NCBI RefSeq assembly: GCF_019059575.1
Contig: NW_024881861.1
Coordinates: forward strand, 62,001 to 126,000
DNA from: Amphibalanus amphitrite
Lineage: Eukaryota > Arthropoda > Thecostraca > Balanomorpha > Balanidae
Direction: 5' to 3'
Length of the DNA stretch: 64,000 nt
A program made the position numbers and the translations under genes. Numbering within the stretch: position 1 is the stretch's first letter; every line of letters starts with the position of its first letter. The notes beneath the pieces are model-generated. The model was not told the DNA's origin, ran no database searches, and worked only from the letters and a program-made list of their open reading frames with translations. This document shows, one piece after another, positions 12,846-31,800 of this stretch.

Positions 12846-14026
12846 TTAACCTGCGCCCCACTGGGGTCTGCGTATAACGCGCCCAACGGGGGGGGGGGCT
12901 ATTCATAGCTCCCCTCCCTCCTCACTCCGAAACTACTAGGCCGATCGTTAAACTTCAAACGGCTTCTGATAGCCCCGGAAAAACTGTCGAACGAAACCTT
13001 AGTTCATTGACCACTGACGAGGTCACCGATGACGTCACAGGTCAACCCAAAGTAAAAGCTATCGATGTTTGGCTTGTTCACATTTTGGACTCTGGCCGCC
13101 GTCTTACAAGTTAGATCAGGCTCATTTTTGGTTTACACACTCGTGAAGAGATGCTTTAGATACCCTGAGGTTACCGAACTTGTACTTTGATTTTCAGGTC
13201 AGGGTCAGGTCATCACCGATCACGGAAATCTTATATCCGTCGGTGACGTGACACATGTTTTATGGTCCATTTAGGTCATATATTTCGAATTCGATGTCGT
13301 TTATATCATTCGAGGTCATTTTGAGTTGAATTTAGCATAGGTCAGGCCACTTTCAGGTCAAAAAGGTCAAAAAATTTAAGTTGAAATTTTTCAACAGAAA
13401 AGGTGTCTATCGGATGCAGTTTGAGTTCAGGAACACGATGGTGCTGTTTATATTGGTTTACTACGTACTGAAATTTTATTTGAAGAATTTATGATTGTGA
13501 AATATTTGCTATAATGCGTATAACTTGGCCATTTTTGAAGATATCTGGCTAAAACTTGCTAGAGTACCTAAGCCATAATCAGGTATCTTATCACATGTAA
13601 CTATCCCGTTTTTTCGAAGTCAAAAACTAAAAAAAAGATAAAAAGAAATTTTGAATTTAACTATATATAATTTTCAAAATTTTCAAAAATTTGAAAATCC
13701 GAGCTTGCAGTTTGACAATGCAATTTATTCTTAGTCCTCCCATGCAAAGAAATTGGATCTAGCTAAAAAACTGAGCTTTTTGGAGCGATTGCCGTGGTTC
13801 AATGTTTTGCGTCGAAATCGGCCGAGCATGACGTCACTCTGACGTCATTTCCGGCCGTCCTATGGTAGCTACGAGTTTCATCTTTCGACACAAGGTGTCA
13901 AATTGATGCAGCTGAATATACTGAAAGTTTGGCGTCGATACGTCAAGCGGTTTAGAAGTTATTGCAAAACGTGAGGAAGGCTGTGAATAGCCCCCCCCCC
14001 CCCCCCCCCAGTGGGGCGCGGGTCAA
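12846..14026 (-). mobile_element. TTAA-family GC-hairpin repeat (copy A)
   Basis: The left (beta) end has TTAA (12,846-12,849), terminal motif CGCCCCACTGGGG, spacer, inner motif CGCGCCCAACGGGG and a G-run/C-run hairpin around a CTATTCATAG loop. The right (alpha) end has a C-run then CAGTGGGGCGCGGGT, with TTAA degraded to TCAA. Paired TGACGTCA palindromes lie at 13,829-13,836 and 13,840-13,847. It has about 1.18 kb of non-coding sequence, an AT-rich core and several AGGTCA half-sites. Orientation is reversed relative to copy C. Confidence 0.78.
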
Positions 14027-15297
14027 ATAACAGCGTTCAGTGTGAATTATTGCGTAGTTTTTGGACATCTTTGGTCAAAGGGCTTAGACATTTTCGGGCG
14101 GACAGTCGACGAAAATACCGTTCTTTGGACGGACATTGGACATACGTTTACTGAAACTGGCACCATTACCTTAAACTATTGCGTAATGCATTACATAAGC
14201 AATGAACATTACCTAAGCACTACCTGGATTCTGTTTACCAGCCGCCTGTCAGCTTCACCATCGAGATGGAATGACAAACCTCATACGGCAGGGGTCAGAT
14301 TCTGCCCCCCACCCCCCCACCCAGCGGGGCGCGGGCTAAGATCCATACACCTATCCGCATAATCAGGCGGCTGGTGGACAGTTGAGCTGTCTTGCGGCAC
14401 AGCATAGATGCTGGCGCTCACAACTAACGCCATCTAGGAACAAGAGTGTAAACATGCGCATAGCATGCAACGCTGCGTATTTAATTTGATTAGGATGCAA
14501 ATAAATACTACAGACAACTTGCATATACCTTTGGAGATCACTGTCAGTTCGCCCATTGTTTCCGCCATCGGCTATCCAGCGGTCTTGCGAGCGTGGTGTG
14601 ATGAGGCCTTGATAAGACCTGTCTTACGGTATCTGTGGACTTACCAGTATCTGTGGCCTGTTTCCGTGAAATTTAGGTGTACCTATTTGCTTTGCAACAG
14701 AATGCGATTGTGTTGAGCTTGTTCACAAATGTACCGCTATCGTCTTCAAAGCGGGTATTGTTCTCAAAGCGGCCTGCGGCTACTATCTACTGCAAGTTTT
14801 TTTCGGAATGTCCTGAATGATGAAACTGAATGAAACATCAGTTAGAAGTTAAAAATGACAAATTGAACAGATAATTGCCACCCATGCCCTGTCTTAATGT
14901 CTTTATGCCCCTGAGGTCGTGTCATGTAATGAAATGTCGCCAAAGTTTTTCTTACCATAACTTTTGATAGAGACATGCTAGACGATGAAAACACCTCAGA
15001 TGTGTTCAGTTGGACGATACGGATCGACTGATATGCAACATGATCCTTACCAGACAGGTCATGACCTTGACCTGAGATTAAATTTTCGAAATGACTTCTC
15101 GATGTCAACTTACCGTTCATTCGACGCGTCTCGACGAGAGGAACACGATGCTGGCAAAAGCAGCGTCGTTGCTCTCTTGAGTCAAAATTTATTGCTGAAA
15201 AACTATTTGAGCCATTTCGATGCATCCTTCCGCTTCGCTGTCTGGCGTGGCTCCCTCTGCAGTGCGCTTTTGATCCCTAGACCCTAGCCTACTTCTT
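14027..15297. other. No gene seen; one TTAA-family end fragment
   Basis: Positions 14,291-14,338 (C-run then CAGCGGGGCGCGGGCTA) are an isolated terminal fragment of the TTAA family. I see nothing else recognisable. Confidence 0.4.
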
Positions 15298-28621: not shown

Positions 28622-28871
28622 ATGATCGTCAGCGCTCCCAGCGAGACAGAGCCGGCCGCAGCGGCCGCCGGCAGCCCGGCGCCGGGCGGCTCGGCCGGCC
28701 GCCGCGACAGCGAGGAACCGGCGCCCCTGAGCGCTCCGCGCACCAAGGGGCTGCTCAGCTGCTCCTCGTGCGACCTGGAGCTGCTGCACGGAGAGCACAC
28801 GCCACGGCTGCTGCCCGGCTGTCTGCACACAGTGTGTGGCAGCTGCGCCGGCAATCTCAGCAGCAACCCTG
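28622..28871 (+). CDS. Exon 1 of TIF1-like gene: N-terminus and first RING half
   Basis: Starts at an ATG in good context (GTCACCATG). It encodes an Ala/Pro/Ser-rich tail, then the RING residues Cys47, Cys50, Cys67, His69, Cys72 and Cys75. The donor GTGAGT at 28,872 leaves one base of the split Val84 codon. Confidence 0.85.
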
Positions 28872-31800
28872 GTGAGTGGCGACGAACAGAAGATCGTCTC
28901 GGCTCCGGCCCGTGTTGGCGGACTGACCCAGCGCTGGAAGGGGCGGGAGGGGACAGGGGTGTGGTGTCTAGAATATGATGTTCAATAGCGGTGTCAGCTG
29001 CACATTGCGACGGGTGGTTTGACTGTGATGACATTGTGGATTTGGGCCTTGTTTGTGGCTTCATATTATTTCTTTGCTCGACTGTGTGTGCTTGTTAGCA
29101 ACTGTATGCTCATTGTTATTATGGACTCTCTTTGAAGAACAAGCGAACCAATCCATGTATGTACCTATCCCATATTAGCATCGTGTAAGGATTTCTAGTT
29201 TTAGAGCGCCCGAGGTCATGGGTGTAAAGATAAGCTTTGATTTAAGTTCGTTGAAGATAAAGAAAAGACCGTCACTACAACCCTGCGCGCGACGGTGGAT
29301 AGCTGCCGTGCCCGGAATACTTTGTTACGGGGGTGAAGTTTTCTGGATGCTGTATTACCAGAGCTGTGTACTGCTATCAAATCCTGCATCACGTTTAGTG
29401 TTCATTTTACCACCAGTTAGCTGCGCTTCATGGTGAAATCGATGTAAATTTATAGGGCGTAGTTGTGCTGAAAGGTTTTCGGTAGAGCAACAAATATTTT
29501 TATGAAAATGTTTTTTTTTTTGTACCACCGAAACCCTCAAAGTGCAACCATGTCTTTACATAATCAACATCTAAGACGTAACAAGACAGTCGGCTTTCTT
29601 GCAACGTTTACCTGTGTACCGTCCTTGCGGCTGACTATTGGCGGATCCGTGAAAGTAGTTTGAGAGCTGCGGGGGCGGAGTACTCCTCTAAAAGGTGCTC
29701 CATTAATTATAAACTCCTCGGACTTCACCTGTTACGCCTTGCTGTGCGTTTTTTTTTTAACCCACGTCCCGCTAGGCTATTCAGCCATACGCGCCTTGCT
29801 GGAGGGGGGGGGGGCGATTCTGCCCTCTTCCCTCCTGTCTACCTTCCGAACCGATACTCGTAGAAAGACTGAAATAACGGCAATCGAAAGCTCTCGACAA
29901 GAGGAAACCTTTTTTTGGAACCTTTTTTGCCTAAGTAGTTAGATCAGAGGTCAGGTCAGGTCAAGGGTACAAAGTGCAAGTTTCTACATTTTCGGTTTTG
30001 GAGCACAGTTGGCGAATAATGGACTGATGTTGATTTATTGATTTTCCCGTCAGTTTTTTTCTTTAGAATTTTGGGCCAAAATCCCTACTTTTCAAAAATC
30101 CCATATTTTCATTCAAAAGACAAAGCGAACTTACGCATAAAGTATTTTGTTACATCTTGATTCCTTAAAAAGGAAAAACTGATATGTTAAAGGCGTTTGA
30201 ATTTTTACAGTTTCGATGCGAAAATGGCGTGACATGACGTCTATTAACCCTCGCCCCGTTGGGGGGCCAATTTGGCCCCCCTGTGGTTTTTCCCGAATAG
30301 CAAGAAAACGGCGGCGCGCAGTGCCGCCAAATTTTCAGTGCCTTCCCGGGCATCAATTTGACACCTTCACACCAAATTTCAAGTCTTAGGTCACCTTAGG
30401 TCAGGAGTTATTGAGGTCAAACTGAGGTCATGTTCGAGCAAAAATGAGCAAAAAAACATGCAATCTTGAAACGCTCACCAAATCTACAGTTACCAAGCAA
30501 TTTCAAAGTTCTTTATATGGTCTAGTAGACAAGAAGCGGCGCTACAAAATTGCTATCTCGGATTTTCAAAATTTTGGGTTTTTGACCCCTAAAAATTCAA
30601 AAAATTGATTTTTTTTTTGAAAAACTTAAAAAAATCCAAAATAATTCCGAATTTCGAAAAACCCGTAATATATGTGATAGTCCCTGCGCTCTTCACATAT
30701 CAAATTTCAGATTGATATCTCGTTTTTTGGCCAAGTTATAGCGAAAAAACTGTTCAAAAATGATGACGTCAAATTTTTTAACTCAGTTTTTAGCGATTCT
30801 AGAACATGTAGGGCAAAACAAAGACCACCATTGAACTCCCCGTGACGAGCTGCATCGAATCGATGCCCATTTTGTGCAAAAATATCAACTTTGAAATTTG
30901 ACCTAATTTGACTTGACCTTGACCTGACCTTGGCCAAAATGTGACCTAAGCTGACCCCAAAGGCTGCCTGACCCACATAATCGCATTTGGCATGTAAAAT
31001 GGACCATAAAACATATATTACACGACACTTTCGTATTGTGACCCCCCAGTGACTTGACCTCTGTGACCTGACCTGGTATCAGTGACCTCAAATAGCAAAA
31101 TATGTGTTTGAAGAACATTTCCCCATCGATGATTTTCAATGAAATGCATTTACTCGATTTTACAACGCATTTCTTGAAATGCCTGTAAACGGTGAAAATT
31201 CGACCTTTGACCTGACCTGTGACGTCATCGGTTTGACCTAGGTCAATAAAATTGGGTCACAAGGTAGTTCCCTGATAGGGCTATCCAACACCGTTTGCCG
31301 CTTGTCGCTAGGTTGCGTGGTTCTCGAGATCTTAGGGGGGGGGGGGCAAATTGCCCCCCCCCCCCCCAACAGGGCGCGTTGCTCGGCAGAGCCCAACGGG
31401 GCGCGGGTTAAACGTCATTTTCCTACAACTTTTTCGAAAGGATTTCGCTCAGATTTTCAGGGTACGTACATGTCAAATTGATGTATGAATTGATAAGGTA
31501 CTGTAAGTTAACCGTCGCTGGCTCTAAGCGCTTAGAAGCTATTGGCGAAATCTAGAGGTCAGGTTCTGCCCCCCCCCCTCCCCCCCCAGCAGGTCGCGGA
31601 AGTAGTCGTATGCAATGCAAGGAAAAGGCAGAATTTCATCAGTTTTGAGTTTTGACCACTGTGGGAGGAGTTGATGCCCCAAACGCCTCACTTGGGTCGG
31701 CCAGTGCGGCTGTCGAGGCTCAACGTGTATAACTGCATATAGGACGTTGTCCCCAGCGTAACCTGCCAATGTTGCAACATCCGTTGTTGCAATGTGGGCT

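Follow-up and report, generated by a model that had tools for sequence, protein, structure and literature searches.

What are the TTAA-flanked, non-coding elements that lie nested within one another in a single stretch of the barnacle genome, what mobilizes them, and what do their cores carry? The stretch, hereafter called the window, comprises 64,000 nucleotides of Amphibalanus amphitrite (NCBI RefSeq assembly GCF_019059575.1, contig NW_024881861.1, positions 62,001 to 126,000 of the forward strand), and a preliminary description had reported in it at least seven copies or part-copies of a candidate family, designated A to G here, with TTAA edges, hairpins of a G-run and a C-run at each end, and two unlike ends. 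We find that the elements are very probably non-autonomous cut-and-paste transposons of a piggyBac lineage close to that of Trichoplusia piggyBac, a confidence that covers the piggyBac assignment alone and does not extend to our reading of the AGGTCA arrays in their cores. The end with one terminal motif is termed alpha and the end with two motifs beta, and lengths are in base pairs (bp). The elements and fragments are as follows:

1..394, no strand given: E-type fragment, truncated by the window start; 92-93% over ~300 bp
12846..14026, minus strand: element D, an old copy; beta end left, alpha end right; ~71% to F
15017..15153, no strand given: fragment resembling the beta-side flank of the coding element C33 (see below), 79.6% over 137 bp
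16739..17621, minus strand: element E, an old copy; right TTAA gone; no AGGTCA
22208..23105, no strand given: element F, left part; host element split by A and B
23102..24141, plus strand: element A, non-autonomous, 1040 bp; alpha end left, beta end right; TTAA at both edges
24138..25350, plus strand: element B, non-autonomous, 1213 bp; TTAA at 24138-24141 common to A and B
25347..25616, no strand given: element F, right part; bears the two-motif end
29757..30247, no strand given: element G, left part; two-motif end; split by C
30244..31411, plus strand: element C, non-autonomous, 1168 bp; TTAA at both edges; internal-deletion derivative of a coding piggyBac element
31408..31598, no strand given: element G, right part; end decayed

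The limits originally proposed for A, B and C proved exact: all three begin and end in TTAA within TTAACCC-type termini, carry one motif copy at one end and two at the opposite end, and have an inverted repeat of a G-run and a C-run close to each end. D, E, F and G, listed as part-copies, are real, but they are decayed or interrupted and have not kept all edges and palindromes. The right edge of D reads TTGA instead of TTAA, F is one older element within which A and B were inserted side by side, and G is another within which C was inserted. E is 94% identical to a complete relative, L055:1138-2013 (876 bp), which has TTAA at both ends. No open reading frame of at least 130 amino acids (aa) with an ATG, GTG or TTG start occurs inside A to G, in agreement with the claim that they are non-coding. 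The E-type piece at 1-394, the fragment at 15017-15153 and the arrays of AGGTCA and TGACGTCA described below are additions to the original list.

Coding relatives and the piggyBac assignment

A profile search of the assembly with PF13843 (DDE_Tnp_1_7) returned at least 116 scored matches, from 232 candidates, and the surroundings of 53 of the 116 were read. Many of these have other ends (TTAACCCATTAGTGCC and similar) and some are without visible ends; six copies (L040, L042, L043, L044, C33 and C702) carry G-run ends on both sides of a transposase frame. Long copies with the same ends that encode a transposase, to which the preliminary description had pointed as a check, thus exist, and their frames are of piggyBac type. 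The elements at L040, L042, L043 and L044 are 3.97-4.82 kb in length, and the remaining two are:

C33:447032-451754: coding element of 4723 bp; 666-codon frame, 645 aa from the first Met
C702:33509-39481: coding element with a 683-codon frame; another 995-bp element inserted

The profile scores were 203 bits for the C33 frame (L060), 235 bits for L042 and 219 bits for the C702 frame (L047). Positions 1-1004 of element C align at 89%, and positions 1034-1168 at 91%, to the two sides of C702:33509-39481; as C lacks the coding middle between them, it is an internal-deletion derivative. The core of B is 83% identical to the C702 coding element over 410 bp, and the ends of B resemble those of the C33 element over 45-55 bp.

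In a tree of 20 rows, the transposases of this clade (five rows, including L036, which was placed by similarity and whose own ends were not seen) are split off by a long branch with support of 100/100. Identity is 31-62% among the clade's different families and ~21-28% to others. The closest structural match is Trichoplusia piggyBac (PDB 6x67), at 195 bits for the C33 frame and 267 bits for the L042 frame, against 78 and 108 bits, respectively, for piggyBat; for L023, which belongs to another lineage, the order is reversed, with 41.6 bits for Trichoplusia piggyBac and 99.6 bits for piggyBat. The alignment of the C33 frame to the Trichoplusia protein covers 137-664, with TIDE, TMD/TCD, GGVD and the terminal cysteines in register, and with them the catalytic aspartates and the C-terminal cysteine-rich domain. 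The TTAACCCATTAGTGCC-type piggyBac elements were considered as mobilizers of the window's elements and rejected, since they differ in ends and in clade, and L023, the single one taken for comparison, is closest to the other structure.

With TTAA edges, an empty site (below), coding relatives sharing the end plan and a coding parent for C all observed directly, the sequences give good support to movement by a same-clade transposase of piggyBac type. A transposase supplied by full-length relatives in the same genome would bind the two unlike ends, excise the element and join it into TTAA, and it is the clade's own transposase that would move the non-coding copies. The coding relatives, their derivatives and the empty site together make the cis requirements of a piggyBac lineage comparable across natural families.

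Ends, target site and abundance

The ends were compared with those of Trichoplusia ni piggyBac as set out in the part of the published account drawn on here (PMC7351741). There, the left end spans 35 bp and the right end 63 bp; the latter contains an insertion and a duplicated segment, and its bp 34-63 nearly repeat bp 7-35 of the left end. Dimerized C-terminal cysteine-rich domains bind a palindromic repeat of 19 bp (left bp 17-33). In nine barnacle elements (A, B, C, L042, C33, C702, L044n, L045n and L047n), the palindrome centers, counted after TTAA, lie at bp 24-33 in alpha ends and bp 52-61 in beta ends. The alpha centers are at bp 24 in C, 24.5-25 in C702, 26 in C33 and L044n, 25-26.5 in L047n, 28.5 in B (weak), 29 in L042, 31 in A and 33 in L045n; the beta-end palindrome of D is centered at bp 54.5. 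The second motif copy of B starts at bp 34 of the beta end, versus bp 8 in the alpha end (counted by eye).

The opinion that asymmetric ends and guanine-run hairpins match no MITE (miniature inverted-repeat transposable element) family does not stand, as Trichoplusia piggyBac, so far as the cited part of its description extends, has the same layout, which is repeated here; both features thereby speak for piggyBac. The unusual point is the G-run make-up of the palindrome. The G-run/C-run inverted repeat would be read, as a palindrome in duplex form, by two cysteine-rich C-terminal domains acting as a dimer, and the second motif copy of the beta end may be the equivalent of piggyBac's longer right end. 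Hairpin extrusion was discarded as a role for the G-runs, as the palindrome sits near the piggyBac binding palindrome and extrusion is not needed. In other piggyBac lineages of this genome (L009 left, L035 right and L050 left), a palindrome of at least 8/10 pairs, found in 3 of 16 ends, is centered at bp 24.5, where the piggyBac binding palindrome lies.

TTAA is intact on both sides at seven of eight fetched places of element A, and the eighth, L004, has an altered end. For an empty site, the two flanks of F were joined at one TTAA and searched genome-wide. All 40 scored matches, from 1983 candidates, cross the junction at 85-89% identity; in the two loci that were read, L063 has a single TTAA and L064 has TTGA. 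The single TTAA at the uninterrupted F site of L063 indicates that TTAA is duplicated on insertion and, with the coding elements of the same end plan, upholds the earlier suggestion of a piggyBac-like mobilizer with a TTAA target.

Pattern counts were made in the 807.55-Mb assembly (2644 contigs), with the same pattern read backwards as a control. The end motif TTAACCCKCGCC has 69,752 matches (117 backwards), and the strict alpha-end pattern TTAACCCKCGCCCNGNTGGGGGG has 7,790 exact matches (0 backwards); the elements are real and their abundance exceeds chance. If both ends match, 69,752 ends of this one class would correspond to ~35,000 elements and, at ~1.1 kb per element, to perhaps 5% of the genome. 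Element A occupies at least 41 full-length places including itself, the others being 97-99% identical (40 of 4060 first-look candidates were scored); these places are 1035-1047 bp long, and two stand back to back with one TTAA in common. Copies of A are thus homogeneous and C is a non-coding deletion derivative, which places the elements among MITEs. They are longer than the few hundred bp usual for these.

Two other explanations bear on how the elements move and where they land. The mobilizer could belong to another superfamily that duplicates TTAA, such as Kolobok, the piggyBac frames having landed between similar ends by chance; Kolobok-type elements of Xenopus have a TTAA target as well. 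This is highly improbable, since the same two-ended plan recurs in six coding copies, those on the tree fall in one clade, and C is continuous with a coding element on both sides, although the coding search used a piggyBac profile, with no Kolobok model searched. The back-to-back copies, for their part, could reflect active targeting of the element's own ends: there are 1,345 places at which two element ends have one TTAA in common (backwards control, 0), ~2.5 times the ~543 that we calculate for random target choice from 811 TTAA in 292,593 fetched bases, or ~2.24 million genome-wide. That estimate presumes uniform targets, and uneven insertion alone could yield the excess, so we regard own-end targeting as unlikely.

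Several observations count against the piggyBac interpretation of the ends and their movement. A direct coding parent is limited to C and its near copy L044n, and reading 53 of the 116 transposase loci revealed no coding parent for A, D, E, F or G. B palindromes pair at only 7/10 positions, with ties elsewhere, and no clear palindrome lies at the expected place in E, L055n, F, G or the right end of D. Palindrome position moves with G-run length, and the centers given above are without a shuffle control. The terminal CC(C/T)T motif is a published hallmark of piggyBac (quoted in the portion of PMC2872659 cited here); A and L042 carry CCCT at each end, C carries it at its alpha end, and C33 has CCTT at its alpha end; in B, by contrast, each end has CCCG, outside this motif, as do the beta ends of C, C33 and C702.

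Phased AGGTCA clusters in the cores

Counted on either strand, AGGTCA sites number 20, 16, 17 and 9 in A, B, C and D, respectively, and four each in F and G, and E has none; the second-order Markov expectation is 0.4-3.2. Density reaches 6.5-19 per kb in A to D, L045n, L047n and the flanks of L042 and C33, with a background of 1.09 per kb. In L042 and C33 the non-coding flanks have 6.5-13 sites per kb and the frames 0 and 1 sites (0 and 0.5 per kb, respectively). Eight other piggyBac elements from this assembly have, in their non-coding sequence, four sites in 9,213 bp (0.43 per kb). TGACGTCA is enriched in several families and absent from E, G, L045n and C33. The commonest spacing of neighboring AGGTCA sites is 5 bp, a pentamer repeat (23 pairs). 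The sites are grouped in clusters, with the following window positions in A, B and C, converted from element coordinates:

A, AGGTCA clusters: 23210-23277, 23429-23461, 23595-23633, 23735-23811, 23939-23969
B, AGGTCA clusters: 24797-24856, 24961-25022, 25155-25192
B, TGACGTCA pair: 24309-24327
C, AGGTCA clusters: 30388-30430, 30899-30947, 31055-31088, 31208-31245

Spacing was analyzed in 11 segments drawn from nine elements, none of them E, F or G. Of 36 intervals between neighboring clusters, five exceed 250 bp, and the remaining 31 have a median of 167 bp; a period scan fits best at 175 bp, such that clusters recur about every 165-175 bp. Pairwise distances peak at 160-180, 320-340, 500-520 and 660-680 bp with deep troughs between, and none of 1000 random placements was as strongly phased, a comparison in which common ancestry overstates independence. 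The phase is also kept relative to the ends. This comparison covered 12 elements, F and G excepted, with C, L044n and C702 closely related to one another. Two of the 12, both E-type, are without AGGTCA. In all ten that bear it the outermost cluster of at least two sites lies 166-190 bp from the beta end, and in seven of the ten it lies 142-188 bp from the alpha end. In B and D, TGACGTCA occupies the alpha slot instead, and in L042 a single AGGTCA does so together with TGACGTCA.

In replicate loci outside the first phasing test, which include L036 and may hold relatives of the same families, 11 of 18 neighboring cluster pairs are 140-200 bp apart versus 2.8 expected. Clusters of this kind are seldom formed by 199 control hexamers, the next best having five pairs, none within 140-200 bp. 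Across the genome, 166,465 AGGTCA...AGGTCAGG pairs have gaps of 145-175, compared with 8,514 at 65-95 and 10,822 at 225-255, and the backwards patterns give 676, 1,030 and 510, respectively; these counts include overlapping starts and many copies of the same families. No clear guanine-plus-cytosine (GC) or A-tract profile was seen around 40 clusters.

Three side observations concern the surroundings and form of such sites. By eye, a conserved stretch like ATATCATTCGACGCGTCT-GACGAG adjoins AGGTCA clusters at window positions 23831-23879 and 15117-15165 and also in L047 and L060. In the last two, it forms an inverted repeat around one cluster each (by eye). C1:2012254-2012789 and C2:1195134-1195790 are local dense AGGTCA arrays with periods of ~40 and 49 bp, unlike the ~170 bp found here.

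As clusters occur in many cores and also, in coding relatives, in the non-coding sequence on either side of the frame, the array is a property of the lineage. It is probably a cis element used by coding and non-coding elements alike, a role favored by the distance kept from both ends and by its presence in both kinds of element. Our preferred reading, which we offer tentatively and at less than even odds, is that the clusters form a selected, nucleosome-spaced array, one cluster per linker and in register with the ends, read by one protein that recognizes a TGAC core. This DNA-binding protein could come from the host or the transposon, as a host zinc-finger factor or the transposase's own cysteine-rich domain; in the cited part of PMC7351741, the site of the piggyBac cysteine-rich domain also contains TGAC. 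By maintaining regular, open chromatin over the element, such an array would let ends separated by 1-5 kb meet, which would account for its retention in non-coding copies. Do transposons carry instructions for their own nucleosome spacing? The question is testable and seldom asked. The array would also have seeded very many nuclear-receptor-like half-sites across the host genome.

Certain results weigh against this selected array. The replicate loci are sharp in the first interval peak only, the 140-200 bp range was chosen after the earlier data had been seen, and the counted elements have common ancestry. E-type elements share the end plan yet lack AGGTCA, and F and G have only four sites each. 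When AGGTCA was masked prior to alignment, 14 of 33 sites were kept between B and C versus 24 of 29 unmasked (masked controls: other hexamers 64/411, same-letter hexamers 28/101), and between D and F 2 of 13 were kept versus 84 of 419 for other hexamers. For C and L044n, masking left 30 of 36 versus 284 of 416 for other hexamers. Masked conservation is hence moderately positive for B and C and negative for D and F. Strong position-by-position conservation of AGGTCA was rejected as a description, being largely an alignment effect that drops on masking.

A real possibility, although one we would not bet on, is that the clusters are functionless remains of an ancient ~170 bp tandem repeat or of recurrent (AGGTC)n slippage. 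L042 contains a motif-bearing tandem repeat of 187 bp (2.3 copies, 89%), the prevailing 5-bp spacing is that of a pentamer repeat, and masked conservation is modest. Yet in 26 of 30 pairs the similarity between inter-cluster stretches within elements does not exceed that of the best of 30 shuffles, even as the clusters themselves survive; the array keeps its distance from the ends; and TGACGTCA, which is no product of the pentamer, holds the alpha slot of B and D. Some inter-cluster stretches are alike between families. It is more doubtful that the clusters bind host nuclear receptors and CREB-type factors, promote transcription of the transposase in this way and were retained in deletion derivatives. 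AGGTCA and TGACGTCA are consensus sites of such factors, and arrays flank the frames of L042 and C33. Against this, a promoter is of no use to non-coding elements, some of which nonetheless reach the highest densities, arrays are present at both ends, and the overlapping 5-bp spacing appears unsuited to two adjacent receptor monomers.

Other features of the window and known systems

Elsewhere in the window, Ty3/gypsy-like frames lie at 5333-9193 and 9121-10173 on the minus strand, with reverse transcriptase, RNase H and integrase, and a zinc knuckle in the second frame. A second Ty3/gypsy-like pol frame at 42217-45534 (minus strand) is adjoined by a DUF7041 frame at 45474-46529 (minus strand). 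Three long, GC-rich open frames (477, 585 and 933 aa) at 50021-56405 on the plus strand have no Pfam match at E 0.001. A candidate noted by eye at 28622-28870 (plus strand) has cysteines like those of a RING/TRIM-type zinc finger followed by a splice-like GT.

Among known systems, Kolobok and T2-MITE elements of Xenopus share the TTAA target and amplification as MITEs; they differ in having another transposase, the coding relatives here being piggyBac. CMITE of Acropora corals, in the parts of PMC2872659 covering the abstract, the start of the Results and the Discussion, is likewise non-coding and piggyBac-related, with TTAA, tandem copies and a core kept between families. It differs in being ~100 bp long, with similarity to the parent confined to the ends, and no G-run palindromes or AGGTCA arrays are described in those parts. 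The piggyBat element of Myotis lucifugus (PDB 9c0f; PMC11707139, as far as consulted) is of the piggyBac superfamily with unlike ends and subterminal binding sites, but its transposase is more distant (78 and 108 bits) and its end motifs are other.

A 2023 survey of Amphibalanus amphitrite piggyBac types (PMC10813416) gives, in the portion consulted, a largest type of 4732 bp and a longest transposase of 645 aa. The C33 element, compared by size only, has 4723 bp and the same 645 aa, and by this near equality the coding relatives may already be in print. The words hairpin, palindrom-, asymmetr- and non-autonomous are absent from the main text of that survey as available to us. In the open-access literature, judged by title and the start of the abstract, no description of AGGTCA-type arrays in piggyBac elements or MITEs was found, and within that literature a piggyBac with G-run palindromes and phased arrays may be what stands out as new.

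The closest counterpart is Trichoplusia ni piggyBac (PDB 6x67/6x68). It shares with the barnacle elements the TTAA target, the CCC terminus, asymmetric ends with a duplicated segment in one of them, a palindromic internal repeat at nearly equal distance, and a DDE transposase with a C-terminal cysteine-rich domain. The barnacle elements differ from it in their G-run/C-run palindrome, their phased arrays of AGGTCA and TGACGTCA, and their very large non-coding families.

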